Shown here: positions 30,787-52,957 of the stretch, piece by piece
How the letters are laid out: each line of letters opens with the position of its first letter
How positions within the stretch are numbered: the first letter of the stretch is position 1
Assembly (NCBI RefSeq): GCF_026151205.1
Contig: NC_087072.1
Coordinates: 12,998,169-13,058,168 of the forward strand
From: Bolinopsis microptera
Taxonomy: Eukaryota > Ctenophora > Tentaculata > Lobata > Bolinopsidae
Length of the DNA: 60,000 nt
Direction: 5' to 3'
Notes under the pieces: model-generated
What the model saw: the letters and a program-made list of their open reading frames with translations, nothing else
The model's database searches: none
What the model was told of the DNA's origin: nothing
Made by a program: the position numbers and the translations under genes

Positions 30787-31416
30787 ATCAAAATCAGATA
30801 TAATTGATAATAAGACTTTTTAGTTTTACCTTCAGCGTGAGCCTTTGGTGTTCATTAAACCCATATAAAAGCTGGAGAAAGGGTTCCGTCAAGGTTTAGG
30901 CTGATTTCATCGGCGGGGTGCCAGATATTAACGAACTGCACTGACACGACTATAATCACTACAGCTCCCCGGCAAGTTCAAAGTTTAATGAGTCCGGGTG
31001 TGTTTAAATAAATACCCCTAATCAGCGTTTCAATCACTATCCATAACATAAGCTTACTATAAATGTGTCAAGTTTTCAGTTTTAAGAGACAAGAGCGTTT
31101 GACGATTATCAAAAAACACTAAATCGTAAATACAGCGCATAGTAGTTCGTACATATTCGTATATCTAGAGTATACATACTTATTCTGCTCGTTTTCTGAC
31201 CTATTCGAATGGAATGCATCCTACAAATGATGGTACCACACGATGTTAATGTGGAAATAGGGTTAAATAGTGTCCACAGACAGCACATTTGATCCAAGAT
31301 AAATACCACTCCTCATGGACGCCTCTCCAGATACATAGAATTAATTCCTTCTGTTTCATCCTTACTCTCTAGTTACGAGTTGAGTGTGATAGATTTGCTG
31401 TGTAGCTATAATGGCG

Positions 31417-31610
31417 CAGGAGGGTCAACCTGAAAAGAACATTGCTTGACCCTCCTGCCCCACCACATGGATCAGGAGGTTCATTTCAGAAAAAACAGTG
31501 CTTGACCCTCCTGCCCCACCACATGGATCAGGAGGTTCATTTCAGAAAAAACAGTGCTTGACCCTCCTGCCCCACCACATGGATTACGGGGGTCATTTGA
31601 ACCCACGTGG
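31417..31610. repeat. Left subterminal hairpin and 56-bp repeats
   Basis: TTGACCCTCCTGCCCCACCA recurs three times, with a 56-bp period set by ATGGATCAGGAGGTTCATTT and a CAGAAAAAACAGTG tail. The first copy pairs with the terminal CAGGAGGGTCAA to make a 12-bp stem with a 17-nt loop. Confidence 0.88.
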
Positions 31611-32667
31611 GTTCAAGACCATGTGCACTTATTTCTACATCGCGCGCGATACGTGTGTGCGTGATTACATGAAATCTTACCGCGCCCTACGCCAAGTAGA
31701 CGAAAAGCGTGGTCGAAGAGCGAGAGTCGGTACAATAAATAAAACGAGAGTTGGTACATTTAACTGGCATTTTTTAACCGTGGTACAATCAGAATTGCAT
31801 ACAGCCGACACAGGATGAGGGGGGGGGGGGGCAATGACTACTGATGGAGATTTTTGAGCACCAATGGGGACGAAAATCATAGGGACTGAAGGTCAAATCG
31901 CTGGTGAAATTTTCCATTTGTCCCCATAAGTACCCAAAGTTTTGGCGAGTTTTATGTAGTTTTGATATTATCTTTTATTAAATGACTTCTAAAGGAGACT
32001 TTTGGGTACCAATGGGGGCTAAAAATCTTGGAGACTTGAGGTTAAATTGCTGGCGAAATTCTGCACTTGTCCCCAAAGTACCCAAAGTCATTGGCTCCCC
32101 CCCCCCTCCCCCGGGTGAGGTGACGGAGAAAAATAAACTGAGCTCAAGGCTACATTTCCAGATATCCCGCCAGGGCACCGTCGCTCATGCTGCAAAGTGT
32201 GTTGAGAGATGCCCACGTCATCACACGTAAACTGTGTCACGAATACCTGAAATGCAGACGTGCATCAAGAACAAACATAACTCTGATCTATATTTTTCAT
32301 AAAACTTTCAGGATTTGCCAATGAGGGAAAAGACAGCACTGTCCGAGAAGCTAGAAATGCATGAATCATAGGTGACATGGATAGGGGTAAGAAGTTTTTA
32401 AAAAACATGAAAATTGTGAAAGGAAAAGAAGTAGAAATGAGAAAGGGTAGATTTAAAATGTTTGAGAATCGATTTTGTGCTGAAGAACTCCGTCCGCAGG
32501 ACGGGCTTCCGGCTACTTATGATAATTCGAATAAATTTGAGATTCAAACAAGCTACGAATACGAATGCTTATAGCAGTGGCAAGCTCGTGGCAAGCTCTT
32601 GTTTGCTGCGCATTGGCTGCAATGTATAACCGCAGTATGAACTGTCAAAATATTTGAATTTGCTTAC

Positions 32668-32904
32668 CTAGTGGCTTTGTTTGATAAAGCATACATACTT
32701 TATATACCGATAAATCAATAACTCCTTTTGATTCTTCGGTTTGAGAATTGTGCGGTCACACATCTCTGCAATGTCTGAAAAGGTGGCAGGGAAGTATTGA
32801 AACTTACTTAACACTATATTTACAGTTAAACCTTGAACTACTATAACTAGGGCAGTAGGAAACGCCAAAAAGTAGATCATCTGACTAAAACAACTTAACT
32901 TCAT
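32668..32904 (-). CDS. Unrecognised 78-codon frame with hydrophobic leader (left arm)
   Basis: The ATG-started frame opens with MKLSCFSQMIYFLAFPTALV, which looks like a signal peptide, followed by a mixed hydrophilic region. The right arm has the same frame (46,295-46,531) with one residue change (Gly to Asp). I recognise no family. It could be an exon of a captured gene or chance; length and composition alone do not prove coding. Confidence 0.2.
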   Translation of the reverse strand: MKLSCFSQMIYFLAFPTALVIVVQGLTVNIVLSKFQYFPATFSDIAEMCDRTILKPKNQKELLIYRYIKYVCFIKQSH

Positions 32905-34690
32905 CCAAGAGTCTAGTTAGCAGCATTGTAGCGATAAGATACCACCATAGTTTGAGCTGTCGACACTGAAATAAAACAAACAATTTACTTTTCACTACTG
33001 CAGGGGAATGCATGTAACATATAAAGAATAAAGATATAATATATTGTATGTTTTTCATCGTGGCCTCAGGGGAGAAGGGCAGCTCGAAAAACCGAAAAAA
33101 GTCTAAAAAACCGTGTTGGAGCTGGTGAGTTAAAGCTACCGATCTCGATCGTGAGAGTCAGATGATCAGATCGCATGTAACGTGAGTTTCGCCCGCCTGA
33201 ATAAGGCAACATGAAATCATATTGCTGGTGACAGGTCTCGACCAAGATGTAAAATAAAGATACCCCAAATTTGTTATTTTTAAGCCGATTCACATCGACC
33301 CAAGTCTCTGCTTTGACCCTAAATGCTCAAACTTCGTTAATAGATTGGAAAATCGTGTTATGCTTGTTACTAATAACTGTTGTTTGTGAGAGGACATCTC
33401 GATTTCCCGGATCAGAGGATCACACCAATGAGGGGTTGATTGTGCATGTGTGAACTTGACTAAATTTTCAAATTGCCCGATTTTTTTTCAGTAGGTCACA
33501 TTACTCGTGACGTGCAAATGTATCTTTTGTCTTTTAATAGGTCAAGCTCAGAGCTTTAAAGCTTTAAAGACTTCTCCGTGACAAAGACGGCCGACATATA
33601 TCTTTACTCCAGGAAAAGTCAGAACTCTTTCCACACCACATTCTTAAATGTACACGACAGCAGAACGACGATGTAGCCCCACGCCGCAGTAAACTTTAAA
33701 TTTCTGACCCGGAACGAGCCCAGCAACTGTAGACAGCTGCGTGAGCTATGTACGGTTAGCAGATTTAAGAGCTTATGCAATAAGCAGTCACCGTTCACTC
33801 TCATTTTTGACTTTTCTTCTTTTGAACAACAAATGTCCATTGAATGATGCCAAGCTAAGCGATTATGATTAGAAAAGTACCGTGATTTACACTGATGGCT
33901 CATACAAGGACTTGTTGGACTTCGTGAATTTGGAGGACCTGCAGCTGTAATCAGTACTTCACTACCAGATGTGCGAGGCCGAGGTTCCCGTTTGACAACA
34001 TTACAAGTGGACCACCCAGGCCGGGATGATCACGCGCTAGTTGACATGAGATCTGATTCTCCCGGGAAAATTGGGCGAGATGACCGGTGTCCTGTCAGAG
34101 GTCACAGATACAAGGATACAAAAATATAAATATTTTATTGTACAATTACAATAGTCGTATAAACTTGACAAATTCGCCTACCATCACGTGACCCTCGTCA
34201 ACGAGCAAGTGAAAAATGTGTTCACAGCATTTATATTATACGGTAACTACACCATAGATTGACAAGCTAAGCGTACAGAAAAACGTCCAACTCCGGACTA
34301 TAATAAAACTCCGGTATAATAGCGTTTTTGACGGAGCAATTTAATGGCCTGGAGTAGGAAACTTTGTTGACCGGAATAAATTGATCCGAAAGGCGAAAGA
34401 TACATATGAGAGGCCATCATAAGATGGTACCAAAATATCTCTGTGAAAAGTCCTTTTTACTTTTTTAAGCGTCAAAAGTCGGTGCACTTACTTTATCCAT
34501 CGAAAAAAGGCATCCCCTGGTGGCTCGTAAAGTATCGATTTTAGCTGTCTAGTAGCCATCTTCTGTGCTCTCTGGCAGTCTAAGAAGAAACATTATATAC
34601 GACTCTATACAAATAATCTTATTATAAAACAGGATCATACATAGTTAATAGAACTCCATTAAGAAAACATCTTAACTACGTAATCTGTGC

Positions 34691-34840
34691 CTAGTACAAC
34701 AGTTTCCAACACTTCCTACAGCTAGCAATATCCCTTATTTCATTTAAATCACTCAAATTTCTAAGTTCTAAGTTTCTATATTTAAGGTCATCAACAAGCA
34801 TATTTGATATAAGTTTGTATTAGGTCTACCAACACGCCCT
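34691..34840 (-). pseudogene. RT C-terminal relic in left arm
   Basis: With one frameshift, the minus strand reads a C-terminal tail starting GRVGRPNTNLYQI and continuing DLKYRNLELRNLSDL to a WKLLY end. It resembles the tail of the LINE at 44,583-45,808 (GRRGRPQSNLF... RYWRNLQ). It is an old relic, mirrored at 43,128-43,277. Confidence 0.65.
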
Positions 34841-35879
34841 TTAAATTTACCACTACTATTTAACACAAATTTCTCTTTGTGATGAAAAAGTTTAAAGAAG
34901 CTTTACAACTTAACTCAAACTAATGCTTCTGTCTGTCTGCTGCATTTGAGTTTATTTCTAAATGATTCGCAGCTTTCGGTAGCTCCATGTTCAGCCCACC
35001 ATGCCTGAAAAAATTTGGTTCACAATAACTTTGGTTCCCATAAATATTATGGTTACCATAATATAAGTCACAAATTTTGTTAATTTCAAGTCAACAACAA
35101 TATTAGTCGTATTTTTAAGACCATTTTTCCATATCATTTAATTTTTTAAATTTATTCAGCTAGCTTTTTTGACTAAAATATTTTCGATCTGGGAAATTAT
35201 TTAAAGACGAGTCAACATTACATACATCAATTACATAGCATCACATACATTTACCTATAACACGCAGTAGCGACTTGTATAAATTTAACGATACTTAAAT
35301 TCGTTAAATCATATATCATGTATATGCTCTGCTGAAATTTTAGTCTCCTTTAAAATAAGTCCTCCCATGAAATTTAGTTTACAACAATTTTAGGCAATTG
35401 TTTGACTTAATTTATGGTATAATAGATTTTTCGTTCCTGAGGAAAGGGAATTTCGGCGGATATAGTAACACCAGAAAATATTGGTTTATGTAAATTGAGT
35501 TTACGTTGTTTATCAATGATTCGAGGGCACTGCAACGAGAATTAGAACAATTAATCAAAAATTACTGCCTAAACATTTAATGAGCAAAACCTAACGAGCT
35601 TAACCTCTGTCACTCTTTTTCGGAGATTCAATATCATTTGACACAACTCTATGGATTAACTATATGATTTTTTAAAATAGGAAAACTAATCTGGTTGTAT
35701 CCTAGCAGAACTGATTATTATATACGTTAAGAACAGTGTCAGCTGGAATATTCAAGTAAGGTCATTTGTGTGCTTTCTTTTACAACAGAAACAAGGAATT
35801 GAAATATCATTGTAAACTAAAACTGACAAGGGTAATCATAACATAACATTGTGCTCACAGTGTCACTCCATTCCTGAAA

Positions 35880-36200
35880 AAAGCCCATTTTCTTCCAATA
35901 AGACAACAAATAGAGTATAAGATTGCTCTAACCGTGTTCAAATGTGTCAACAACGTAGCTCCAAATTATATCACCAAATGCATCAACATTAAGAGTCAAC
36001 CTGTACGTGTACTACGGACTGAACAAGACTATTTCCTCCTAAATGTTCCTACTGTTTCAAATTATAGTAAAACTGAGAGAAGCTTTAGTTACTGTGGACC
36101 CTTTGTTTGGAATCAGCTTCCTTAGCAATTGAGAACATTAACCGATATCGTCTTGTTTAAAAAGAGAATAAATACGCATCTCTTTGAAAAAGCATTCATA
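35880..36200 (+). pseudogene. CR1-like LINE C-terminal relic, left arm
   Basis: Read with tolerance for stops, this encodes the end of a CR1/Jockey-group RT: an FKCVNNVAPNYI segment, VLRTEQDYFLLNVP, SFSYCGPFVWNQLP and a LFKKRINTHLF tail. The open part is 35,934-36,125; a stop follows NQLP. Upstream RT motifs are missing. Confidence 0.75.
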
Positions 36201-37389
36201 TAAGTAGCATATAATAACTTTCTCATAAAACCCAAACTTCATAAAAATAAGTTCTAATGTACATATTCATGAGTCGCTTTAGATGGCTTGAACTGAATCT
36301 TTACTTAGCTGTCATTAGTTTAGTGCTCAGTGTCAACAAGAATTGTCATTATATTTTCCCTGTGATAATATTCAATTTCAAGTCAATATATCATAGTTAT
36401 TGAATGCCTATATATATCCTGAAGTTAGGACTATGATTTGACCTGCCCATCCCCTAATTTTGGAAGTTTATATGCTCCTATCGTGAAAATGAGGTTAATT
36501 GAATGAAGGCTTTCATGTTATTCTGTATTATCACGTCATCTTACATCACATTATCAGGTCCAGTATATCCATAATTAAGACACCAATTGAATAATGAATG
36601 TGAATTTGTTTAGAGAATAAAATTTAGGTCGAAAATTTTGATCCTTCCCCCCCCCCCCCCCCCGCCCCCCTCTGGCCTTATTTCATTAAATCCATAACAC
36701 CTGATCTTGAAGTTACTCACAAGGCGAGGAACATCCTAGCCTGTCCAGCATCTGGGAGGTCTACACAGGAAACAGTAGCTCATTTAGCTCTAGGTCACCA
36801 GGCTGTGACAGTAGTCTTGATGTCCATTGTCCAACCAGTTCTGCGATTTACAGGTAACATCTAGGTAAATGAAATGAAATAATGAAATGAAATAAGAATA
36901 AGATTAAGTTGAATGTGCTTATGATGGGACCCCGGAGGGCAAGATCAGGTTATAATACTTGAATGACAACCCAAAAATAGGAAGAGATCAAGAGGCAGGT
37001 CTATAGGAAGAGCTTAAATGTAGTAGAAATGTTACCTACCCTCCGAAGATGTATAAGTAAAGTAATAAAACAGCTCGCGCAGACTAATCTTTTTGGATGG
37101 AGATCTCGCTAGAGTAACATGTTACTTGGTTCAATCCAATAACATATAAAATTAAAGAGTTTAAGAGTCCAAAATAGGAATTTAACACAAATATATATTA
37201 AATTCATTCACTGCAACAATCACTCCATAAAATCATGTAGGAGTATTGATAAGATTGAGTTCCAGATCACCTATATTGCTGTGGATGCTAAAATCCTGAC
37301 ACCTCTATAACCCCTAAAAGAAACTATACATGTCATGGGTAATGGATATCATTAGTAGGTAGTTATTGCAAACAGAGTGCTACCAAGTG

Positions 37390-38430
37390 CCACGTCTTAT
37401 GATTTTCTAGAAATCAGAAACAAAAAGTAAAACTCTAATCAAAATGCTGAGCAGGATGAAGCAAAGACTTGAAGAAAAACTAAGAGACAACCAGAATGGC
37501 TTCAGACCTGGTTGCTCTACAACTTCGCACATTCTTGTTCTGTGAAGAATTATATAGGGTCTAAAGAGTGTGAAGGCCACTATGATGTTTATAGATTTTA
37601 ATAAAGCCTTTGACAGTGTACATAAAGGTTTGCTTATTAAGATACTTAAAGCAAATGGTATACCAGAATACATAGTGCGATTGATCTACACAAACACAGT
37701 GGCTTAAGTAATCACAACTGCAGATGGTATTACAGGGGTCTTCGAAGTCCTGGTAGGATCAGGATTCGGGAGTACTGCAAAGAGACACCTCATACTTGTT
37801 CATCATCGTGATTGACTATATCATGACAGTGGCTATAGATGATGACTCAGACTCTGGGTTCACTCTTAAGCCTGCACAGGGTGTAGATGGATTTGTGCTG
37901 AAAATATCGCATATGTCAAATTCTCAGATGATGGTGCCCTTATCACTGATATAATTGAATGGGGCAAAACTACTCCTGGACAGGCTATAGGAAGCAGCAA
38001 AAAGTGTGGGGTTAGTCTTGAACAACTCTAAAACAAATCTCATGACTCTAAACACTACAGAGGAAAGTAGACTTTAAAGCTGTTCTGGAAACCAGCTGGA
38101 AAACGTACCTTGGGGGCATAGATATCAACAACTGAGAGAGACTTTAGAGAGACTTTTCAAGAGCAACTATGAAGATCCAAGAGCGTAGGATGCAACTAGC
38201 TTTGCCATATACACTGCCACCTTGAACTAGTTGCTAAGTGTGGGGTACTTAATGAACCTAACCATGGTGTGCTGAGCAGGGGAAGAACAGTCATAACTTA
38301 TGTTGATAGCCTAAGGGCTGATACGGGTTTGAGTAACACTGGAGAAATCACGGGACTTATGGAGGATAGAAATCTATCGAGACAGTGCATCAATACTCGG
38401 ACGCTGAAGCCTAAATTAAGAGAAGTTTAA
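37390..38430 (+). pseudogene. Degenerate non-LTR reverse transcriptase, left arm
   Basis: The plus strand reads NQNGFRPGCSTTSHILVL, then after two stops FIDFNKAFDSVHKGLL (RT motif A). Further on come an IIVIDYIM segment, an FSDDGALITD box in place of F/YADD, KTNLMTLNT, and near the end YVDSLRADTG with a RxCINTRTLK tail. Several stops and frameshifts make it a pseudogene. It belongs to an RTE-like or related family (inferred) and differs from the LINE at 44,583-45,808. Confidence 0.72.
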
Positions 38431-38903
38431 AAGTTCACAATCATAATTATTATTTAAAATTGCCTCTAATAGCTACTGATAATCAGCTTGATAGTCGTCT
38501 TCCAGCCAGTTTATCAGAAATAAATAAAATGCAGAACCTAACAAAAGGACTAAAATAACTCCAAGATATATTTCATGAAAATTACTAAATTTGCATTGGC
38601 GCTCGATTCCAAAGGATTTTTGTTAATGATGCGTTGACAAAATGCGCGGCGCGCAAAAATTATCATTTGAAATTGTTTGTTGTTCAAACATATTTCATAA
38701 AATAATCTGTAATATATAGTTCTAATAGTGTATAAAAAAGAATAATCTCAAAATATAACACTAAACAGAGCAAAAACGAGGATCGCGCAAAAATCATATC
38801 TATTTTGACAATTTCCGGGATTTTGAACAGGAACCATGTTTATACATATAGTATAATTAACAAAATACTCAAACCGTTAATTTATTGATCCATAAATTTT
38901 TAA

Positions 38904-38963
38904 ATTCTTTATATTTTCGTATATAAAATTATTTTTGCAAACTATTGACCGGGGACTCTACAA
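38904..38963. other. 60-bp spacer at the palindrome centre
   Basis: AT-rich, non-palindromic sequence between the arms. The adjoining 100 bp or so on each side pair at only about 80% while sequence further out pairs at about 99%. Confidence 0.8.
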
Positions 38964-39428
38964 TTAAAAATTTATGGATCAAGATTTTAATGGTTTGCGT
39001 ATTTTGTTTACATATATTTAAATGGTTCCTATTTAAAATCGCGGAAATTGTCAAAATAGATATAATTTTTGCGCGATCCTCGTTTTTGCTCTGTTTAGTG
39101 TTATATTTTGAGATTATTCTTTTTTATACACTATTAGAACTATATATTACAGATTATTTTATGAAATATGTTTGAACAACAAACAATTTCAAATGATAAT
39201 TTTTGCGCGCCGCGCATTTTGTCAACGCATCATTAACAAAAATTCTTTGGAATCGAGCGCCAATGCAAATTTAGTAATTTTCATGAAATATATCTTGGAG
39301 TTATTTTAGTCCTTTTGTTAGGTTCTGCATTTTATTTATTTCTGATAAACTGGCTGGAAGACGACTATCAAGCTGATTATCAGTAGCTATTAGAGGCAAT
39401 TTTAAATAATAATTATGATTGTGAACTT

Positions 39429-40565
39429 TTAAACTTCTCTTAATTTAGGCTTCAGCGTCCGAGTATTGATGCACTGTCTCGATAGATTTCTATCCTCCAT
39501 AAGTCCCGTGATTTCTCCAGTGTTACTCAAACCCGTATCAGCCCTTAAGCTATCAACATAAGTTATGACTGTTCTTCCCCTGCTCAGCACACCATGGTTA
39601 GGTTCATTAAGTACCCCACACTTAGCAACTAGTTCAAGGTGCCAGTGTATATGGCAAAGCTAGTTGCATCCTACGCTCTTGGATCTTCATAGTTGCTCTT
39701 GAAAAGTCTCTCTAAAGTCTCTCTCAGTTGTTGATATCTATGCCCCCAAGGTACGTTTTCCAGCTGGTTTCCAGAACAGCTTTAAAGTCTACTTTCCTCT
39801 GTAGTGTTTAGAGTCATGAGATTTGTTTTAGAGTTGTTCAAGACTAACCCCACACTTTTTGCTGCTTCCTATAGCCTGTCCAGGAGTAGTTTTGCCCCAT
39901 TCAATTATATCAGTGATAAGGGCACCATCATCTGAGAATTTGACATATGCGATATTTTCAGCACAAATCCATCTACACCCTGTGCAGGCTTAAGAGTGAA
40001 CCCAAAGTCTGAGTCATCATCTATAGCCACTGTCATGATATAGTCAATCACGATGATGAACAAGTATGAGGTGTCTCTTTGCAGTACTCCCGAATCCTGA
40101 TCCTACCAGGACTTCGAAGACCCCTGTAATACCATCTATTCTGGTATACCATTTGCTTTAAGTATCTTAATAACTCTGACTTACTTGACTTAAGGCGGCT
40201 TCAGCGTCCGAGTATTGATGCGCTGTCTCCATAAAACTCTATCCGCCATAAGTCCGCCCATTTCTCCAGTGTCGTTGAGACCCGTGTCAGCTCGTAGGCT
40301 ATCAACATAAGTCATGGCTGGTCTTAATAAGCAAACCTTTATGTACACTGTCAAAGGCTTTATTAAAATCTATAAACATCATAGTGGCCTTCACACTCAT
40401 GGCCTTTAGACCCTATATAATTCTTCACAGAACAAGAATGTGCGAAGTTGTAGAGCAACCAGGTCTGAAGCCATTCTGGTTGTCTCTTAGTTTTTCTTCA
40501 AGTCTTTGCTTCATCCTGCTCAGCATTTTGATTAGAGTTTTACTTTTTGTTTCTGATTTCTAGAA
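39429..40565 (-). pseudogene. Degenerate non-LTR reverse transcriptase, right arm
   Basis: Mirror of 37,390-38,430, interrupted near 40,140-40,330. About 52 bp are lost there and a second, diverged copy of the tail region (compare 39,449-39,590) is inserted, followed by repetition of TCTTAATAA. Confidence 0.7.
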
Positions 40566-41766
40566 AATCATAAGACGTGGCACTTGGTAGCACTCTGTTT
40601 GCAATAACTACCTACTAATGATATCCATTACCCATGACATGTATAGTTTCTTTTAGGGGTTATAGAGGTGTCAGGATTTTAGCATCCACAGCAATATAGG
40701 TGATCTGGAACTCAATCTTATCAATACTCCTACATGATTTTATGGAGTGATTGTTGCAGTGAATGAATTTAATATATATTTGTGTTAAATTCCTATTTTG
40801 GACTCTTAAACTCTTTAATTTTATATGTTATTGGATTGAACCAAGTAACATGTTACTCTAGCGAGATCTCCATCCAAAAAGATTAGTCTGCGCGAGCTGT
40901 TTTATTACTTTACTTATACATCTTCGGAGGGTAGGTAACATTTCTACTACATTTAAGCTCTTCCTATAGACCTGCCTCTTGATCTCTTCCTATTTTTGGG
41001 TTGTCATTCAAGTATTATAACCTGATCTTGCCCTCCGGGGTCCCATCATAAGCACATTCAACTTAATCTTATTCTTATTTCATTTCATTATTTCATTTCA
41101 TTTACCTAGATGTTACCTGTAAATCGCAGAACTGGTTGGACAATGGACATCAAGACTACTGTCACAGCCTGGTGACCTAGAGCTAAATGAGCTACTGTTT
41201 CCTGTGTAGACCTCCCAGATGCTGGACAGGCTAGGATGTTCCTCGCCTTGTGAGTAACTTCAAGATCAGGTGTTATGGATTTAATGAAATAAGGCCAGAG
41301 GGGGGCGGGGGGGGGGGGGGAAGGATCAAAATTTTCGACCTTAATTTTATTCTCTAAACAAATTCACATTCATTATTCAATTGGTGTCTTAATTATGGAT
41401 ATACTGGACCTGATAATGTGATGTAAGATGACGTGATAATACAGAATAACATGAAAGCCTTCATTCAATTAACCTCATTTTCACGATAGGAGCATATAAA
41501 CTTCCAAAATTAGGGGATGGGCAGGTCAAATCATAGTCCTAACTTCAGGATATATATAGGCATTCAATAACTATGATATATTGACTTGAAATTGAATATT
41601 ATCACAGGGAAAATATAATGACAATTCTTGTTGACACTGAGCACTAAACTAATGACAGCTAAGTAAAGATTCAGTTCAAGCCATCTAAAGCGACTCATGA
41701 ATATGTACATTAGAACTTATTTTTATGAAGTTTGGGTTTTATGAGAAAGTTATTATATGCTACTTA

Positions 41767-42087
41767 TATGAATGCTTTTTCAAAGAGATGCGTATTTATT
41801 CTCTTTTTAAACAAGACGATATCGGTTAATGTTCTCAATTGCTAAGGAAGCTGATTCCAAACAAAGGGTCCACAGTAACTAAAGCTTCTCTCAGTTTTAC
41901 TATAATTTGAAACAGTAGGAACATTTAGGAGGAAATAGTCTTGTTCAGTCCGTAGTACACGTACAGGTTGACTCTTAATGTTGATGCATTTGGTGATATA
42001 ATTTGGAGCTACGTTGTTGACACATTTGAACACGGTTAGAGCAATCTTATACTCTATTTGTTGTCTTATTGGAAGAAAATGGGCTTT
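41767..42087 (-). pseudogene. CR1-like LINE C-terminal relic, right arm
   Basis: Mirror copy of 35,880-36,200; the 63-codon frame (41,842-42,033) is identical at the protein level. Confidence 0.75.
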
Positions 42088-43127
42088 TTTCAGGAATGGA
42101 GTGACACTGTGAGCACAATGTTATGTTATGATTACCCTTGTCAGTTTTAGTTTACAATGATATTTCAATTCCTTGTTTCTGTTGTAAAAGAAAGCACACA
42201 AATGACCTTACTTGAATATTCCAGCTGACACTGTTCTTAACGTATATAATAATCAGTTCTGCTAGGATACAACCAGATTAGTTTTCCTATTTTAAAAAAT
42301 CATATAGTTAATCCATAGAGTTGTGTCAAATGATATTGAATCTCCGAAAAAGAGTGACAGAGGTTAAGCTCGTTAGGTTTTGCTCATTAAATGTTTAGGC
42401 AGTAATTTTTGATTAATTGTTCTAATTCTCGTTGCAGTGCCCTCGAATCATTGATAAACAACGTAAACTCAATTTACATAAACCAATATTTTCTGGTGTT
42501 ACTATATCCGCCGAAATTCCCTTTCCTCAGGAACGAAAAATCTATTATACCATAAATTAAGTCAAACAATTGCCTAAAATTGTTGTAAACTAAATTTCAT
42601 GGGAGGACTTATTTTAAAGGAGACTAAAATTTCAGCAGAGCATATACATGATATATGATTTAACGAATTTAAGTATCGTTAAATTTATACAAGTCGCTAC
42701 TGCGTGTTATAGGTAAATGTATGTGATGCTATGTAATTGATGTATGTAATGTTGACTCGTCTTTAAATAATTTCCCAGATCGAAAATATTTTAGTCAAAA
42801 AAGCTAGCTGAATAAATTTAAAAAAATTAAATGATATGGAAAAATGGTCTTAAAAATACGACTAATATTGTTGTTGACTTGAAATTAACAAAATTTGTGA
42901 CTTATATTATGGTAACCATAATATTTATGGGAACCAAAGTTATTGTGAACCAAATTTTTTCAGGCATGGTGGGCTGAACATGGAGCTACCGAAAGCTGCG
43001 AATCATTTAGAAATAAACTCAAATGCAGCAGACAGACAGAAGCATTAGTTTGAGTTAAGTTGTAAAGCTTCTTTAAACTTTTTCATCACAAAGAGAAATT
43101 TGTGTTAAATAGTAGTGGTAAATTTAA

Positions 43128-43277
43128 AGGGCGTGTTGGTAGACCTAATACAAACTTATATCAAATATGCTTGTTGATGACCTTAAATATAGAAACTTAG
43201 AACTTAGAAATTTGAGTGATTTAAATGAAATAAGGGATATTGCTAGCTGTAGGAAGTGTTGGAAACTGTTGTACTAG
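43128..43277 (+). pseudogene. RT C-terminal relic in right arm
   Basis: Mirror copy of 34,691-34,840 with the same frameshift, so the relic predates the duplication of the arms. Confidence 0.65.
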
Positions 43278-44582
43278 GCACAGATTACGTAGTTAAGATG
43301 TTTTCTTAATGGAGTTCTATTAACTATGTATGATCCTGTTTTATAATAAGATTATTTGTATAGAGTCGTATATAATGTTTCTTCTTAGACTGCCAGAGAG
43401 CACAGAAGATGGCTACTAGACAGCTAAAATCGATACTTTACGAGCCACCAGGGGATGCCTTTTTTCGATGGATAAAGTAAGTGCACCGACTTTTGACGCT
43501 TAAAAAAGTAAAAAGGACTTTTCACAGAGATATTTTGGTACCATCTTATGATGGCCTCTCATATGTATCTTTCGCCTTTCGGATCAATTTATTCCGGTCA
43601 ACAAAGTTTCCTACTCCAGGCCATTAAATTGCTCCGTCAAAAACGCTATTATACCGGAGTTTTATTATAGTCCGGAGTTGGACGTTTTTCTGTACGCTTA
43701 GCTTGTCAATCTATGGTGTAGTTACCGTATAATATAAATGCTGTGAACACATTTTTCACTTGCTCGTTGACGAGGGTCACGTGATGGTAGGCGAATTTGT
43801 CAAGTTTATACGACTATTGTAATTGTACAATAAAATATTTATATTTTTGTATCCTTGTATCTGTGACCTCTGACAGGACACCGGTCATCTCGCCCAATTT
43901 TCCCGGGAGAATCAGATCTCATGTCAACTAGCGCGTGATCATCCCGGCCTGGGTGGTCCACTTGTAATGTTGTCAAACGGGAACCTCGGCCTCGCACATC
44001 TGGTAGTGAAGTACTGATTACAGCTGCAGGTCCTCCAAATTCACGAAGTCCAACAAGTCCTTGTATGAGCCATCAGTGTAAATCACGGTACTTTTCTAAT
44101 CATAATCGCTTAGCTTGGCATCATTCAATGGACATTTGTTGTTCAAAAGAAGAAAAGTCAAAAATGAGAGTGAACGGTGACTGCTTATTGCATAAGCTCT
44201 TAAATCTGCTAACCGTACATAGCTCACGCAGCTGTCTACAGTTGCTGGGCTCGTTCCGGGTCAGAAATTTAAAGTTTACTGCGGCGTGGGGCTACATCGT
44301 CGTTCTGCTGTCGTGTACATTTAAGAATGTGGTGTGGAAAGAGTTCTGACTTTTCCTGGAGTAAAGATATATGTCGGCCGTCTTTGTCACGGAGAAGTCT
44401 TTAAAGCTTTAAAGCTCTAAGCTTGACCTATTAAAAGACAAAAGATACATTTGCACGTCACGAGTAATGTGACCTACTGAAAAAAAATCGGGCAATTTGA
44501 AAATTTAGTCAAGTTCACACATGCACAATCAACCCCTCATTGGTGTGATCCTCTGATCCGGGAAATCGAGATGTCCTCTCAC

Positions 44583-45808
44583 ATTATTAATTATTAAATC
44601 AAAGTTCTAAACAAGGGATAGTTAAAAAAACAACGCCCAAGTCTAATCTTTCCCTAAAACAAAAACTAAAAATTAAAAACTTCATTGCAAATTCCGCCAA
44701 TATCTCTTGTCATAACTCAAATTACGGAGATAATGCAGGTCAAAGATATTATTCAAATAAAGATTTCTTTTACATAAATCATGCACAATCAGTGAGAATA
44801 GATTGCTTTGGGGTCTTCCTCTTCTCCCTGGTAAGTCCAGTGTATTGATGGCAAAAATGAGGGAAGAAAACGCTGGTCCGTCAATAGGACCCCGCAAAAC
44901 ATGTCCTAACATTCTCCACCGACTACGGGCCACTCTTTCTGACAATGGTTCAGCATTGCAGCGTTTATACAAGTTTTTGTTGGAGATGACTCCTGGATAC
45001 CTTATATTCAAAATAGTGCGAAGATGTCTGCGGTGAACAACATCTAGTTTTTCAAGGAATATTTTGGGGACGGCCCAACAGGATGAGTTGTACATAAGAA
45101 CCGATACGACTAAAGCATTATACAGTATTAGACGTTTGTTTAGGGGCAGTTTATCACTCCAGGCCTTCTTGTAATTGTTAAAGGCAGCATATCCCAGGTT
45201 TATGCGACGCTGAATATCAGCTTTGCTACACAAGACGGACCCTAGAGTGATACTTTTCCTCCATGCTTCATTCCCCGACACTAATTTTCCATCACTGTCG
45301 ACTTCACCCGTACTAGCTAAATAAACATGAGTGAAGTCCGTTTTGTCTTCATTGACAAAGAGGTTCCATTTCTCGAGTATAGCTGTTGCCTGGGGCAAAA
45401 TAGCTCTCAAGTTGTCTTCCTCTTCATCATTGAAGTCAACATCATCAGCATATTCAGTGTCAAGTGGAAGGCCAGCAATAGTAATCGGGGGGATCGGCCT
45501 ATCTAAACTGATTGTTATAGTCCATCTAAGTTCATTCAAAGCACCAGCCAAGACAAGGGTGAACAGACAGCCGGATAGACAGTCACCTTGGAAAGCTCCA
45601 AGGAGACTTAAAAACTCAGCTGAAAGAACTCCATTTACCTTCACCCGTAGCTTTGTGTTGGACAACAACAACCGGACAATCCTCAGCTCATCCTCAGTAC
45701 AGCCACACAGTTTCAGGAGTTCAAGAATCGTAGTGCGTTTGATCGTGTCAAACGCACTGGACATATCAATGCCCATGCGATGATACTCCCATTTCTTCCT
45801 TTGGACAA
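44583..45808 (-). mobile_element. 1,226-bp 5'-truncated LINE present only in the right arm
   Basis: The left arm has the empty site at 33,386-33,390. The insertion is bounded by direct CTCAC (44578-44582 and 45809-45813). On the minus strand the 3' end is a TTAATAATTAATAAT-type tail and the 5' end is cut just upstream of RT motif A. The open frame (44,682-45,776, extending upstream to the junction) is intact. Confidence 0.92.
44682..45808 (-). pseudogene. Reverse transcriptase of the right-arm LINE (truncated)
   Basis: The frame is open from the 5' junction. It begins with a basic segment and MGIDMSSAFDTIKR (motif A), then GAFQGDCLSGCLF (motif B region), LDTEYADDVDF (catalytic box YADD), an EKWNLFVNEDKTDF motif, LGSVLCSK, a C-terminal WRMLGHVLRG segment and GRRGRPQSNLF. 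The RT lacks motifs upstream of A. There are no internal stops, so the copy is young. Similar RTs belong to RTE-like groups (inferred). The ATG at 45,776 is internal. Confidence 0.85.
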
Positions 45809-46294
45809 CTCACAAACAACAGTTATTAGTAACAAGCATAACACGATTTTCCAATCTATTAACGAAGTTTGAGCATTTAGGGTCAAAGCAGAGACTTGGG
45901 TCGATGTGAATCGGCTTAAAAATAACAAATTTGGGGTATCTTTATTTTACATCTTGGTCGAGACCTGTCACCAGCAATATGATTTCATGTTGCCTTATTC
46001 AGGCGGGCGAAACTCACGTTACATGCGATCTGATCATCTGACTCTCACGATCGAGATCGGTAGCTTTAACTCACCAGCTCCAACACGGTTTTTTAGACTT
46101 TTTTCGGTTTTTCGAGCTGCCCTTCTCCCCTGAGGCCACGATGAAAAACATACAATATATTATATCTTTATTCTTTATATGTTACATGCATTCCCCTGCA
46201 GTAGTGAAAAGTAAATTGTTTGTTTTATTTCAGTGTCGACAGCTCAAACTATGGTGGTATCTTATCGCTACAATGCTGCTAACTAGACTCTTGA

Positions 46295-46531
46295 ATGAAG
46301 TTAAGTTGTTTTAGTCAGATGATCTACTTTTTGGCGTTTCCTACTGCCCTAGTTATAGTAGTTCAAGATTTAACTGTAAATATAGTGTTAAGTAAGTTTC
46401 AATACTTCCCTGCCACCTTTTCAGACATTGCAGAGATGTGTGACCGCACAATTCTCAAACCGAAGAATCAAAAGGAGTTATTGATTTATCGGTATATAAA
46501 GTATGTATGCTTTATCAAACAAAGCCACTAG
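46295..46531 (+). CDS. Unrecognised 78-codon frame with hydrophobic leader (right arm)
   Basis: Mirror copy of 32,668-32,904, intact. A good splice-acceptor-like tract (GTTTTATTTCAG) lies about 65 bp upstream. Confidence 0.2.
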   Translation: MKLSCFSQMIYFLAFPTALVIVVQDLTVNIVLSKFQYFPATFSDIAEMCDRTILKPKNQKELLIYRYIKYVCFIKQSH

Positions 46532-47599
46532 GTAAGCAAATTCAAATATTTTGACAGTTCATACTGCGGTTATACATTGCAGCCAATGCGCAGCAAACAA
46601 GAGCTTGCCACGAGCTTGCCACTGCTATAAGCATTCGTATTCGTAGCTTGTTTGAATCTCAAATTTATTCGAATTATCATAAGTAGCCGGAAGCCCGTCC
46701 TGCGGACGGAGTTCTTCAGCACAAAATCGATTCTCAAACATTTTAAATCTACCCTTTCTCATTTCTACTTCTTTTCCTTTCACAATTTTCATGTTTTTTA
46801 AAAACTTCTTACCCCTATCCATGTCACCTATGATTCATGCATTTCTAGCTTCTCGGACAGTGCTGTCTTTTCCCTCATTGGCAAATCCTGAAAGTTTTAT
46901 GAAAAATATAGATCAGAGTTATGTTTGTTCTTGATGCACGTCTGCATTTCAGGTATTCGTGACACAGTTTACGTGTGATGACGTGGGCATCTCTCAACAC
47001 ACTTTGCAGCATGAGCGACGGTGCCCTGGCGGGATATCTGGAAATGTAGCCTTGAGCTCAGTTTATTTTTCTCCGTCACCTCACCCGGGGGAGGGGGGGG
47101 GGAGCCAATGACTTTGGGTACTTTGGGGACAAGTGCAGAATTTCGCCAGCAATTTAACCTCAAGTCTCCAAGATTTTTAGCCCCCATTGGTACCCAAAAG
47201 TCTCCTTTAGAAGTCATTTAATAAAAGATAATATCAAAACTACATAAAACTCGCCAAAACTTTGGGTACTTATGGGGACAAATGGAAAATTTCACCAGCG
47301 ATTTGACCTTCAGTCCCTATGATTTTCGTCCCCATTGGTGCTCAAAGTCTCCATCAGTAGTCATTGCCCCCCCCCCCTCATCCTGTGTCGGCTGTATGCA
47401 ATTCTGATTGTACCACGGTTAAAAAATGCCAGTTAAATGTACCAACTCTCGTTTTATTTATTGTACCGACTCTCGCTCTTCGACCACGCTTTTCGTCTAC
47501 TTGGCGTAGGGCGCGGTAAGATTTCATGTAATCACGCACACACGTATCGCGCGCGATGTAGAAATAAGTGCACATGGTCTTGAACCCACGTGGGTTCAA

Positions 47600-47835
47600 A
47601 TGACCCCCGTAATCCATGTGGTGGGGCAGGAGGGTCAAGCACTGTTTTTTCTGAAATGAACCTCCTGATCCATGTGGTGGGGCAGGAGGGTCAAGCACTG
47701 TTTTTTCTGAAATGAACCTCCTGATCCATGTGGTGGGGCAGGAGGGTCAAGCACTGTTTTTTCTGAAATGAACCTCCTGATCCATGCGGTGGGGCAGGAG
47801 GGTCAAGCAATGTTCTTTTCAGGTTGACCCTCCTG
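47600..47835. repeat. Right subterminal hairpin and 56-bp repeats
   Basis: Complement of the left subterminal block but with four copies of the GGGGCAGGAGGGTCAAGCA unit. The additional copy accounts for the 56-bp offset between the arm ends. Confidence 0.88.
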
Positions 47836-48148
47836 CGCCATTATAGTAGCAATTAGTTCAAAATATGTCCAGAACAATTGACTCATTGACTGTCAATTCG
47901 TTTCGGCATTTGATAATTACAAATTAATTTGCTATTTTGCTTATATCACTAGTTCTTATGAGTTTATAGGGAGGGTTTGGGGTATTACTGGAAGTATCAA
48001 ACACATTTCGTGGTGTAATCTGTCTACAATGCTAATGGTTAAACTTCACCTAGCTACAGGCAAAAAGTGGTGTGGAAGCAGCTATCATACCTTGATTATT
48101 GTTTTAAAATTTTGTGGTTAAGAATTGTGATATTCCAGCTTTTCTTAA

Positions 48149-49551
48149 GGGGAGATACACCAAAAACGTTTTTGCTCCGAACATCGATTTTATTTTATAT
48201 TATGGTTAAATAGACAAAAAGAATAAGATTGCACACCTTCAAAATTTTCTAAAAATATTCCCTCATCGAGAAAAAAAATATTTTTCTTTTTCGAAAATTT
48301 TTAAAATTTGGAGAAGTCTGTCACTGTAATATCGATAGTTCGGCCATTCTAAAAGTTTTTTGGCTGATTTTTTTACTGAAGATTACTTACACTCTGTACA
48401 AGACAACCCTTTAAAGGATTATTTAATTAAACAATAAATGACCAAGTTACAGACCGAACAAGGTGAAAAAAGAAAAGTTGGGATTTTTGCCTACCACCAA
48501 AGTTGTACATTTTACCACTCGCCCAGGTCATCAGATATCGCTTCAAAAATTCTTGTGAGTGTAGCTGATGAAAATATCAAACTTTTTGGAACAGGATTTC
48601 TCTCAGTTTTGAGTTTTAAGGTATGAAATGTGGCCTCAAACGACTTAGTAAAATTCATCGTAAAAAAGGGCCAAACATGGCAGATTTAAGGCTTAAAATG
48701 CCTATAACTCAAAAAGTATCAATTTTTTTGAAATAATTTTTACAGAATCGTAATCAGCTTGAAAAGACGAATCTTTTAGTACCAAATAGGTGATTTTAGA
48801 AGACAAATTGTCTTAAATAATTTTCTAGCTCGAACACAAGGGTCCCCCCTTGTATAAATTTTGTACAAATTGTACACATTTTTTTACAAATTTTGTGTCT
48901 TTAACTATTATAAATTTGGTACTAAAAGATTCGTCTTACCAAGCTGATTACGATCCTGTAAAAATTATTTCTAAAAAACTGATACTTTTTGAGTTATAGG
49001 CATTTTAAGCCTTAAATCTGCCATGTTTGGCCCTTTTTTACGATGAATTTTACTAAGTCGTTTAGGCCACATTTCATACCTTAAAACTCACAACTGAAAG
49101 AAATCCTGTTCCAAAAAGTTTCATATTATCATCAGCTACACTCACAAGAATTTTTGAAGCGATATCTGATGACCTGGGCGAGTGGTAAAATGTACAACTT
49201 TGTTGGTAGGCAAAAATCCCAACTTTTCTTTTTTCACCTTGTTCGGTCTGTAACTTGGTCATTTATTGTTTAATTAAATAATCCTTTAAAGGGTTGTCTT
49301 GTACGGAGTGTAAGTAATCTTCAGTAAAAAAATCAGCCAAAAAACTTTTAAAATGGCCGAACTATCGATATTACAGTGACAGACTTCTCCAAATTTTAAA
49401 AATTTTCGAAAAAGAAAAATATTTTTTTTCTCGATGAGGGAATATTTTTAGAAAATTTTGAAGGTGTGCAATCTTATTCTTTTTGTCTATTTAACCATAA
49501 TATAAAATAAAATCGATGTTCGGAGCAAAAACGTTTTTGGTGTATCTCCCC
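48149..49551. mobile_element. 1.4-kb foldback element flanked by TTAA
   Basis: Arms of about 650-700 bp mirror each other around a centre near 48,850. The terminal sequence is GGGGAGATACACCAAAAACG. TTAA borders both ends (48145-48148 and 49552-49555), the target duplication of piggyBac and Kolobok superfamilies. Mirrored 62-codon frames (48,438-48,626 and 49,074-49,262) differ at several residues, so the arms have diverged by a few percent. It is non-autonomous; the superfamily is inferred from TTAA only. Confidence 0.85.
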
Positions 49552-49555
49552 TTAA

Positions 49556-50126: not shown

Positions 50127-52923
50127 TTAAAAGTTGTCGGTAACGTAGATGATTTTGTGCTTTTCGATCGTATCAATATCTTTCTCCAGTTGTTTCATCT
50201 CAGCTTCCATTCTTTCTTTCCTGAGAAGATAATGCGGTTATAATTAAGATTCGCCATTGGAACTCGTTATGATTATTCTCCCATTAATGATCAAAAACGG
50301 CAGACAAATATTCTCGTCAGGGGAGGAATAAGATTACCTGGCTTTCTTTGGAGCAGTGTCCGTGACAACAGACAGACCCTGATATTGTAAATGTAACTCC
50401 TCCCAGTTCTTCTTTAGACCATCCAGTGTCTTTTGCCTGAATTGTTACTGTCGTTAAACTGAATTCTTTAAAAGAGCATTCCATTAACAATCAATCAAAA
50501 ACAGAGTATAAAATATTGCTGCATCAGAATTATACTGATGCATATTTGTCGAATGTCGATCATGATTGATATTGAAATAAATATGATCAAAAGTTAACTT
50601 TCTGTACCTTTCAGGAGCGGTAACTTGGTTCAGGGCGCCTTTCTGTAATCTCTGTTGAATGTACTGTTCATAGTTTGCCTGATGTTCGGCCATCTGCTTC
50701 TTCCTTGCTTCCAAATATTTAGGTACTGTACCGTAATTGTCCTTCTTTACGAATTTGGGTACCAAACCGGAGTCCTAAAAATATCATGATAATCACTGGA
50801 AATACAGAAATTAATACATTTTTTTGTTACAGATAATGGGTATAATTGTCAGTCGAGAAAAAAACCCCGATCAGACGCAAAATATACACGCAACAATCAA
50901 CATATTTACAATTTACTTATTTATTGAACTCGCAAAAGTTTCAATAGGTAATTACTTTTGACATCTAACATACACAGATTTCTGCGGTAATATAGATGTC
51001 AAACCTCCAAGGCGTTTGTGGTTCCACCGGGTGTATCCACATATTTAGGCTGGGGTTTCTTGGCAACTGACATGATGTTCTCTACGGCATTAGTATGAAG
51101 GAAGTTCTTGTTCGACTTTAGCCCCATGACCGGCTTTTCGTCTCTCTTGGGCACGGCTGGTCGCTTACCGTCAGCATTTGGTCTTGCGAAGGCGGCTTCT
51201 GAAGTTATAGGCGAATTAATGATAGGAATCAGAATAAATTTACAGTTTTCTTTGAATTGTATCGAATAATCCTGCTTCGGCCGGCCATGCAGTTTGAACA
51301 TCAAAACAATACTAAGGTTACCATGGAGACGCGCATTTAAAGCGAATAAATTGCGTCTTTGATATTGCGCGAACGTTTTCGCGCGTTCCGCTTTTACTAT
51401 TCTGTAGACCTTTCATTTTAGTTAGAGATGTCAATGTCACAGTAGGACATATAATAAAGTATCTGGTCAAAACCTGGCACAACTTAGCGAGTTTAGAAGG
51501 TTTGAGATGTTATTTGTGCTCCCTAGGGTCTCTACTTCAAAAAAAATTTGGGTGGATAATTTTTTATGTTTGTTTAAACCCGTGACCACGCCCTTTTTAA
51601 AGCGTGGGAAAACTTTCCCAAAATTATTGAAATTTGCCTATAATATTTGATGGGGGTCTCTAAATGGCTTGATATGATGCCATCAGTATTACTAGAACAT
51701 AATAAAATAAAATTTGGGTAAATAAAAGTGTAGTGGCACCCTGACCACGCCCAAAATTCGGAAAATTCGAAGTTGTTTACTCTAGCAGCAGGGAGGTGTT
51801 TAGTTTGTATTTAAACTGCTGAATCGAGTTAAATAGGTTATATAAGTAACTTAATTCAATTAATTGGGCATGTTGAGCCATTAGTTTAGCCTTGGGGAAC
51901 CACGCCCATATTTCATATTAGGCGCGTATGTGAGAAATTTTTATCTCAGCTTCTGAAGACCGTAGAAACTTAACTTTGGGCTTAAAATTACCGCAATATG
52001 TAAGTTTATATTGACACTATTAAGGTGCTGAAGCTCTCCAGGACTTACTTTTGGATAAAAATGAGAAAAACTGATATAATTTACTGAAGCGCATTAACAA
52101 AAAAAAACTTCCCTAGCAGCTAGGTTAAGTCAAGTAGGCAAATCAATGTATAAAGTTTTACTCGACACGGTCGAGTAAAATTCGTAAGGTCTTAAGGTCA
52201 TTCTGGGCTAGAATAATTTGATTTTGGGTGCCCACGTTTATCAGTAGTCCAACCCTGGCCTAGGTAGTAAAATTTCTACATTGCCCTCAGGCGCAAATAT
52301 AAGATTTTTCTATCCATCTCAGCTCCTGAATATTGTAGGACTTTCAAGATAACCACAACAGCAGAATGGCCATATTGATATTTATATACAAGCTATGAAG
52401 CAGTATGGGGTCTATAGTGCATAGTTTTTGAGATATTTATTTTTAAAACATGATTTTTAAATATATCTTGCGCTTAAAAATACAACAAAGGTTCAACACT
52501 ACCGCATTTATGTACCAGCACCATCAGCTCATCTTAGAAATCACAAACAACCCGCCGGGCAGCTATCTCTAGTTAAGCTCATTTCAGTACCCGTTGACTA
52601 TAATATATGCCCACTTTTATGTCAGTACAACCTCATCTAGCAAAGTCCAGCTGAAGCAGGAGGCCGACTTCCAGGTCCCCCCATTATTAGGGGTCCCATG
52701 GAGATCAGATCATGTCACTAATCAGTGACGTATAATTAGTGATGTGATCCATCGGTAGAATTTAATTGACCTAGAAATGGGCGAGATACAGGGTAGAGTT
52801 CACATGTTAACTCTGTATGTATCATAGCTGTGCATTAAGAAGTAAACATGATCTGATGATCTTTAAGATTTGACCGCTCGACTCGTATATCACATAAGGG
52901 ACGGGAGCTCTTGCTAAAGCTAA

Positions 52924-52957
<34 letters not shown>

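Follow-up and report, generated by a model that had tools for sequence, protein, structure and literature searches.

A family of giant foldback-like palindromes in the genome of the ctenophore Bolinopsis microptera

Long near-perfect palindromes are usually thought to be unstable; asymmetry at the centre is a known stabilising factor. Y chromosomes carry palindromes whose long arms flank an unlike centre and stay alike through arm-to-arm conversion. Among DNA transposons, the closest described systems are foldback elements with long terminal inverted repeats (TIRs). For Galileo of Drosophila, a member of the P superfamily, the available excerpts of published accounts describe chimeric copies with non-matching flanks (PMC3573991, PMC2775673). 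Tetris, a foldback element of Drosophila virilis, has no conserved reading frames according to the available part of its description (PMC4079207). Here we describe a giant palindrome in a window of 60,000 nucleotides from Bolinopsis microptera (NCBI RefSeq assembly GCF_026151205.1, contig NC_087072.1, positions 12,998,169 to 13,058,168, forward strand) and the family to which it belongs. The family presents a TIR-bounded unit at many sites, with 5-bp target-site duplications, empty sites, low divergence and arms that co-evolve. We propose that it is very probably a non-autonomous foldback DNA transposon, whose TIRs of about 7.4 kb meet at a short imperfect core, which is mobilised in trans and whose arms serve as templates for each other.

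The window element is a quasi-palindrome of 16,439 bp (31407-47845; features of the window and coordinates of related elements are collected in Table 1), composed of two arms around an imperfect core of about 270 bp, with GTAGC flanking each side. The palindrome is confirmed as real. Self-BLAST yields the inverted matches 31417-33390/47779-45809 (99.3% identity) and 33385-37642/44583-40322 (99.7%), while 37722-40137 is an inverted match to itself (96.7%). Global alignment of the arms contains 5 mismatches in 5,744 aligned bases (bins 31657-37406) and 4 at 37722-38794 (1,073 bp). An earlier note, made from the sequence alone, had described near-identical inverted arms of 7.5 and 8.9 kb with GTAGC directly repeated outside them; self-BLAST and reading of both ends agree with it, sizes included. 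The greater length of the right arm is accounted for by a truncated 1.2-kb retrotransposon, one extra 56-bp repeat and a non-matching patch longer by about 105 bp. This retrotransposon, absent from the left arm and not mentioned in the earlier note, carries a reverse transcriptase domain (Pfam RVT_1, E 2.6e-10). As in foldback elements, TIRs make up most of the element, as judged by self-BLAST and arm alignment, and contain subterminal tandem repeats with a 56-bp unit. Given its length and its recurrence in the genome, the palindrome is not a product of chance.

Relatives were sought in the host assembly (264,652,675 bases, 232 contigs). In their names, the figure after C is the contig number, and coordinates refer to that contig. 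The first 494 bp of the window element have at least 56 matches (best 40 of 66 candidates). The 23-base terminus, with up to two mismatches, occurs at 49 places, against 0 for a reversed-pattern control, and both termini are present in 14 elements. An internal 1-kb segment (window 33400-34400) forms an inverted pair at 15 elements; five single long matches to it lie on C146, at C1:12868329 and C9:2095569, in the right arm of C7a and in an 87% copy on C11. Counting C7a, whose left arm is short, 16 elements carry both arms. Where both ends were found, element length ranges from about 15 to 32 kb. The extra length of the larger ones read (C12, C6b, C7b) includes long retrotransposon-like frames, some confirmed by Pfam; a Gypsy-like frame in C6b was named by eye. 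Besides the 28 ends of the 14 elements, the 49 places include one end each of C6a, C6e and C9:2098587. A further six fall on short contigs or at C1:12862040/12864473 and C146/C41/C51, and at two more a terminal fragment gives way inward to other sequence (C2:14144384, 91 bp; C1:1231659, below 220 bp). C7a is chimeric: it has window-type ends and a 5-bp duplication (CTGTT), and its interior, which includes a frame of a long interspersed nuclear element (LINE), resembles the CCCTCATAAAAAT family described below. At C11:12047000-12052500 lies an 87% relative of one arm, for which no matching ends were found, perhaps a relic of earlier activity.

A matching 5-bp flank is present in eight of 12 further elements with two readable ends (CTGTT, GTTAC, GATAC, CATAG, ATTGT, GTCTT, CAAAC, GTAAG), so that, with GTAGC of the window, 9 of 13 testable elements carry a target-site duplication. 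Outside this count are C12 and C6a, each with a damaged end, and C6e, whose left end was not found. Joined flanks of C10, C11, C7b and C6b, with the 5 bp kept once, were searched against the assembly (best 40 of 293 candidates). Among the matches listed, copies of the repeats hosting C10, C11 and C7b match across the junction, and no empty paralogue of C6b is present. The C10 match is taken from the search listing; base-by-base reading covered C11 and C7b, where the junction is gapless and the 5 bp occur once in all five loci. One C7b paralogue is identical at 220/220 bases, and all three C11 paralogues have a common 6-bp gap in the flank, away from the junction. The proposal of the earlier note, a TIR-bounded foldback element with target-site duplication, is supported, and so are the further copies with 5-bp duplications that it named as a check. 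Empty sites, which it wanted sought at orthologous positions in other individuals, were found as paralogous sites for the two elements C11 and C7b.

The family is young and recently active. Median divergence between elements is 0.29% (2.2-kb arm segment, window 32200-34400, 35 arms), and so low a value among palindromes of at least 15 kb at many sites indicates recent spread. Three of the 35 arms differ from the majority more strongly (C11_R at 34, C2a_R at 72 and C9_L at 30 positions), and their partner arms are within 0-5 differences of another element. We rejected fast evolution of these arms: transitions are few (8/34, 20/72 and 3/30, respectively) and small gaps abundant, so that the arms look like consensus error, and they were dropped from the arm-variant counts. 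Difference- and gap-rich single arms occur in some palindromes of the genome, probably through palindrome-specific consensus error; the spectrum was tested in these three. Such error bears on the question whether the palindromes themselves could be assembly artefacts, that is, false inverted duplications made by a folded-back read or contig. Long palindromes are hard to sequence, and inverted duplicates lower nanopore accuracy, as stated in the available part of one report (PMC7229812). We nevertheless hold an artefact to be extremely unlikely, in view of 15 inverted pairs at separate loci, distinct duplications at most testable elements, empty paralogous sites, insertions in one arm such as the LINE of the window, and the recurrence of the asymmetric core in further copies.

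Variation within the arms suggests that they do not evolve independently. Across the 32 clean arms there are 48 variable sites. Among the 13 elements with both arms clean, variation was scored at 32 sites, each readable in both arms of at least six elements. When two or more elements have a variant in common, the carrier has it in both arms at all 18 readable element-sites. Variants seen in a single element occupy both arms at 9 sites and one arm at 18. At one of these nine, site 32695, the variant of both C7b arms recurs in the C6a left arm and the C9 right arm, their partner arms being unreadable at this site or excluded, which leaves eight strictly private both-arm variants. Discordant element-sites number 18, compared with a mean of 60.6 when alleles were shuffled among arms, and none of 2000 shuffles was as low.

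Insertions behave in a similar manner. Both arms of C6b carry, at one and the same base, a 118-bp insert flanked by ACAGCTA (177/177 aligned bases identical), and the window has the empty site of this insert. C7b has an insert of about 495 bp at TA, again at the same base in both arms, with 0 mismatches and 11 gap positions in 560; the junction letters of this insert recur in both arms of C3. An insert of about 1.5 kb is limited to the left arm in C5 and present in both arms in C6e and C6a; the first approximately 66 bases of its copies are identical by eye, and the right C6a copy is enlarged. One-arm insertions also exist, as the window LINE and about 0.58 kb in the C4 left arm demonstrate. 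Because independent insertion at an identical base of both arms is improbable, one arm was most likely copied to the other, and the arms most likely co-evolve, with base changes and transposable element (TE) insertions passing from one arm to both. Arm symmetry could alternatively reflect a recent identical ancestor and too little time, rather than exchange after the copies split. Low overall divergence agrees with this alternative, as do the 18 private one-arm changes, which show that arms diverge; the eight private both-arm changes and the same-base insertions of C6b and C7b demand an exchange that postdates the split of those lineages, and we consider the alternative improbable.

The centre of the palindrome follows another pattern. 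The inner halves of the window element have 14 aligned single-base differences, the ten innermost at 38795-38884 and their partners. At these ten sites the left/right polarity of the window is kept in 159 of 180 site-halves in nine other copies (those with both halves read, inserted in either orientation); at site 38869 the window alone is the exception. At the four outer differing sites (37854-38615), the two sides of other copies mostly agree. Neither error as the reason for the less similar centre nor an old asymmetry of the whole inner 2.4 kb could therefore be retained: the innermost differences recur elsewhere and the outer ones mostly do not. Homogenisation appears to stop short of the last approximately 130 bp on each side. 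The conserved polarity indicates that the copies examined descend from one palindrome moving as a whole, and the stabilising effect of an asymmetric centre may explain why only such copies persisted. The structure alone would also fit two ordinary transposon copies placed head to head, or a local inverted duplication that is no transposition unit. None of six terminal motifs searched is found in window 38601-39300, the unit recurs with the same core at other loci, and the duplications lie at its outer ends; this explanation, contradicted already as a description of the mobile unit, is very unlikely.

No Pfam family exceeded the cut-off in 10 window frames of at least about 80 amino acids, nine from the left arm and the tenth mostly from core and right arm. 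Neither an Rfam match in 31000-48200 nor a tRNA anywhere in the window was found. RVT_1 was detected in frames of the nested insert and in those of related elements; next to such frames, C12 and C7b encode a 2OG-Fe(II) oxygenase domain, with weaker PHD and lipase matches. No transposase was seen in the interior of C7a, which is related to the second giant-palindrome family. The interior of the C2:14144384 fragment is low-copy sequence unrelated to the family, and in 2 kb read inward from C1:1231659 no transposase was seen by eye. A shorter, 16-base terminus pattern with two mismatches matched 124 places, compared with 90 for the control; the 100 listed include 51 additional two-mismatch places, 21 of which, judged from their letters, are part of another repeat (TATAATGGCGAAG...), the four read having flanks common to all. 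The statement of the earlier note that no transposase is recognised inside agrees with the arm frames tested, and mobilisation in trans, which that note deduced, is the likely reading; a partner with matching ends was not found.

The transposase-family search was aimed at RAG1/Transib and yielded two matches in the host genome. One is a Transib-like element of 3.9 kb (C3:4782663-4786589) with a RAG1-like protein, CACAGTGG ends, which we take to resemble the RAG heptamer, and TATCT duplicated; it is not a giant palindrome. A related open frame of 571 amino acids lies at C2:19700386-19702098. Transib elements make 5-bp duplications and end in the heptamer CACWRTG. A transposase of this type could be suspected of moving the palindromes, given their 5-bp duplications, a resident element with a RAG1-family match, and agreement of their terminus TATAATG with the heptamer at five of seven positions. 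The heptamer itself is not present, however, and no CAC version of the terminus is found in the 49 places, though two mismatches would allow CACAATGG. Other superfamilies also give 5-bp duplications. We therefore regard a Transib transposase as unlikely, and the resident element was rejected as a partner with shared ends: its ends do not match the palindrome TATAATGG.

We propose the following scenario. TIRs would have grown to about 7.4 kb, until they met at a short imperfect core. A transposase from elsewhere would recognise the shared terminus TATAATGGCGCAGGAGGGTC and then the 56-bp repeats, and a staggered cut of 5 bp would let the whole palindrome insert. Either between jumps or during the repair that goes with them, one arm would act as template for the other, through gene conversion between arms or through fold-back template switching. 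In this way a base change, or even a TE insertion, could spread from one arm to both, the core remaining asymmetric.

Several observations weigh against this scenario. In four of the 13 testable elements the 5-bp duplication is incomplete or missing (C5, C4 and C2b without a match, C9 with 4 bp); a by-eye comparison of their flanks showed no exchanged pair such as inversion by recombination between elements would leave. Eleven of the 49 termini, diverged copies at ten loci of which one carries two, are embedded at a fixed place in another repeat and preceded by the conserved flank AGAAGATTGATCAATGGCAG, so that they spread by another route. No autonomous partner with family ends was found among the 49 terminus places. 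At site 32695, the C6a left arm shares its variant with other elements, and its right arm is unreadable there. Cross-polishing of arms during assembly could give base variants a false symmetry, although it would not readily carry 118-1,500-bp insertions across. Three of the 35 arms look error-rich.

The empty sites and the one-arm and two-arm insertions form natural before/after pairs, from which the tempo of arm-to-arm copying is directly measurable, and the copies open a route to studying the origin and persistence of foldback elements. Inverted repeats of this length probably also provide substrates for chromosomal inversion and can mislead assembly polishing.

Two further families of giant palindromes, with CCC... 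ends and internally related, were reached via the C7a interior. The element at C5:22709942-22724468 has 6.8-kb arms at 98.5% and CCCTACAAAAAATC ends. This element and the C10 member of the CCCTCATAAAAAT family were read through; the others are taken as palindromes on the basis of inverted ends and inverted inner matches. None of the six CCC-ended elements has a 5-bp flank match, and all six have, by eye, a 2-bp flanking repeat (TG, TT, CA, CA, CT, TA), a notable count since two bases match by chance in 1/16 of cases. Duplications that differ in length between families point to more than one transposase, which prompts the idea that the host is responsible for palindrome growth. Tentatively, a host repair process in this genome might repeatedly remodel TIR transposons from different superfamilies as giant palindromes that homogenise themselves, move as a whole and double TE insertions.

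Other repeats of the window were noted. A 1.4-kb foldback with TTAAGGGG ends (48145-49555) adjoins the giant palindrome. An inverted repeat at 51459-55519 has arms of about 1.15 kb (91%), a 1.7-kb middle and GTATCTGGTC ends. Tandem arrays are located at 604-2672 (405-bp unit x5.1, 99%) and 15473-16985 (61-bp unit x24.8, 95%).

Table 1. Coordinates of the window palindrome, its relatives and the CCC-ended palindromes
Feature	Position	Strand	Basis
Window: left target-site duplication GTAGC	31402-31406	+	sequence read
Window: left arm of quasi-palindrome, first letters TATAATGGCGCAGGAGGGTC	31407-38794	+	self-BLAST, global arm alignment
Window: 56-bp subterminal tandem repeats, 3.0 copies	31432-31598	+	tandem-repeat count
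Window: left-arm non-matching patch, 79 bp, at end of LINE-like reading-frame remnant	37643-37721	+	alignments; LINE likeness by eye from translations
Window: asymmetric imperfect core, left/right alleles recurring in other copies	38795-39064	.	alignment, comparison of copies
Window: right arm, reverse complement of left arm	39065-47845	-	self-BLAST, global arm alignment
Window: right-arm non-matching patch, 184 bp, opposite 37643-37721	40138-40321	-	self-BLAST, global alignment
Window: CTCACA copies bordering right-arm retrotransposon	44578-44583 and 45809-45814		sequence read
Window: truncated non-LTR retrotransposon (RVT_1), 1.2 kb, right arm only	44584-45808	-	self-BLAST, Pfam
Window: 56-bp subterminal tandem repeats, 4.0 copies	47598-47820	-	tandem-repeat count
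Window: right target-site duplication GTAGC	47846-47850	+	sequence read
C2a	9030170-9045498		
C2b	14527884-14543067		
C3	421557-443988		
C4	11096120-11112658		
C5	12688317-12707229		
C6a	about 2137035-2158430		
C6b	12381629-12409214		
C6d	14640506-14656735		
C6e	ends at 19985988		
C7a	17121224-17136450		
C7b	13264126-13287506		
C9	8811570-8828205		
C10	4229172-4245986		
C11	17520519-17536029		
C12	4678596-4710567		
Two-ended relatives of C5:22709942-22724468, CCCTACAAAAAATC ends	C8:3405544-3421203, C6:15773077-15809467, C4:7541144-7556020		
CCCTCATAAAAAT-ended family	C10:5599477-5614419, C11:18204457-18224800		

Compared with known systems, the palindromes share the 5-bp duplication with Transib/RAG1-like elements, and matched arms around an unlike centre with the palindromes of Y chromosomes, which differ in being immobile and lacking a target-site duplication. 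Duplications are 8 bp in the P superfamily, 8-10 bp in Mutator (MULE) elements and 6 bp in Polinton/Maverick elements, all unlike the 5 bp found here; PolB, integrase and capsid genes, typical of the last group, gave no family over the cut-off in the 10 window frames, and no P-type transposase was detected in the arm frames tested. The foldback elements come closer, as far as the available excerpts of their descriptions go. Galileo resembles the family in its long, internally repetitive TIRs and in non-autonomous copies that are mainly TIR; its TIRs reach about 1.25 kb and its duplications are 7 bp (PMC3573991), whereas the arms here measure about 7.4 kb. Tetris is likewise non-autonomous, with internal tandem repeats in long TIRs and a partner that was not found, and differs in TIRs of up to 1,735 bp and duplications of 8-10 bp (PMC4079207). 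Tm1, a Mutator/foldback element of root-knot nematodes, is also foldback-like, with composite TIRs of variable length; unlike the present family, it has mostly 9-bp duplications and TIRs made largely of 13-15-bp tandem repeats (PMC3169594). A limited literature search, over available parts of sources including PMC3573991, PMC3169594, PMC6431247, PMC4079207 and PMC2775673, returned no foldback element with arms this long. The suggestion of the earlier note that the palindrome represents a new class of foldback transposon goes beyond these results: its build matches that of non-autonomous foldback elements with long TIRs, the arms being unusually long. Neither the homogenisation of the arms nor the sister families with 2-bp flanking repeats could have been visible to that note. 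Arm length, the 5-bp duplication and arm homogenisation set the family apart, and its architecture is otherwise that of known foldback elements.

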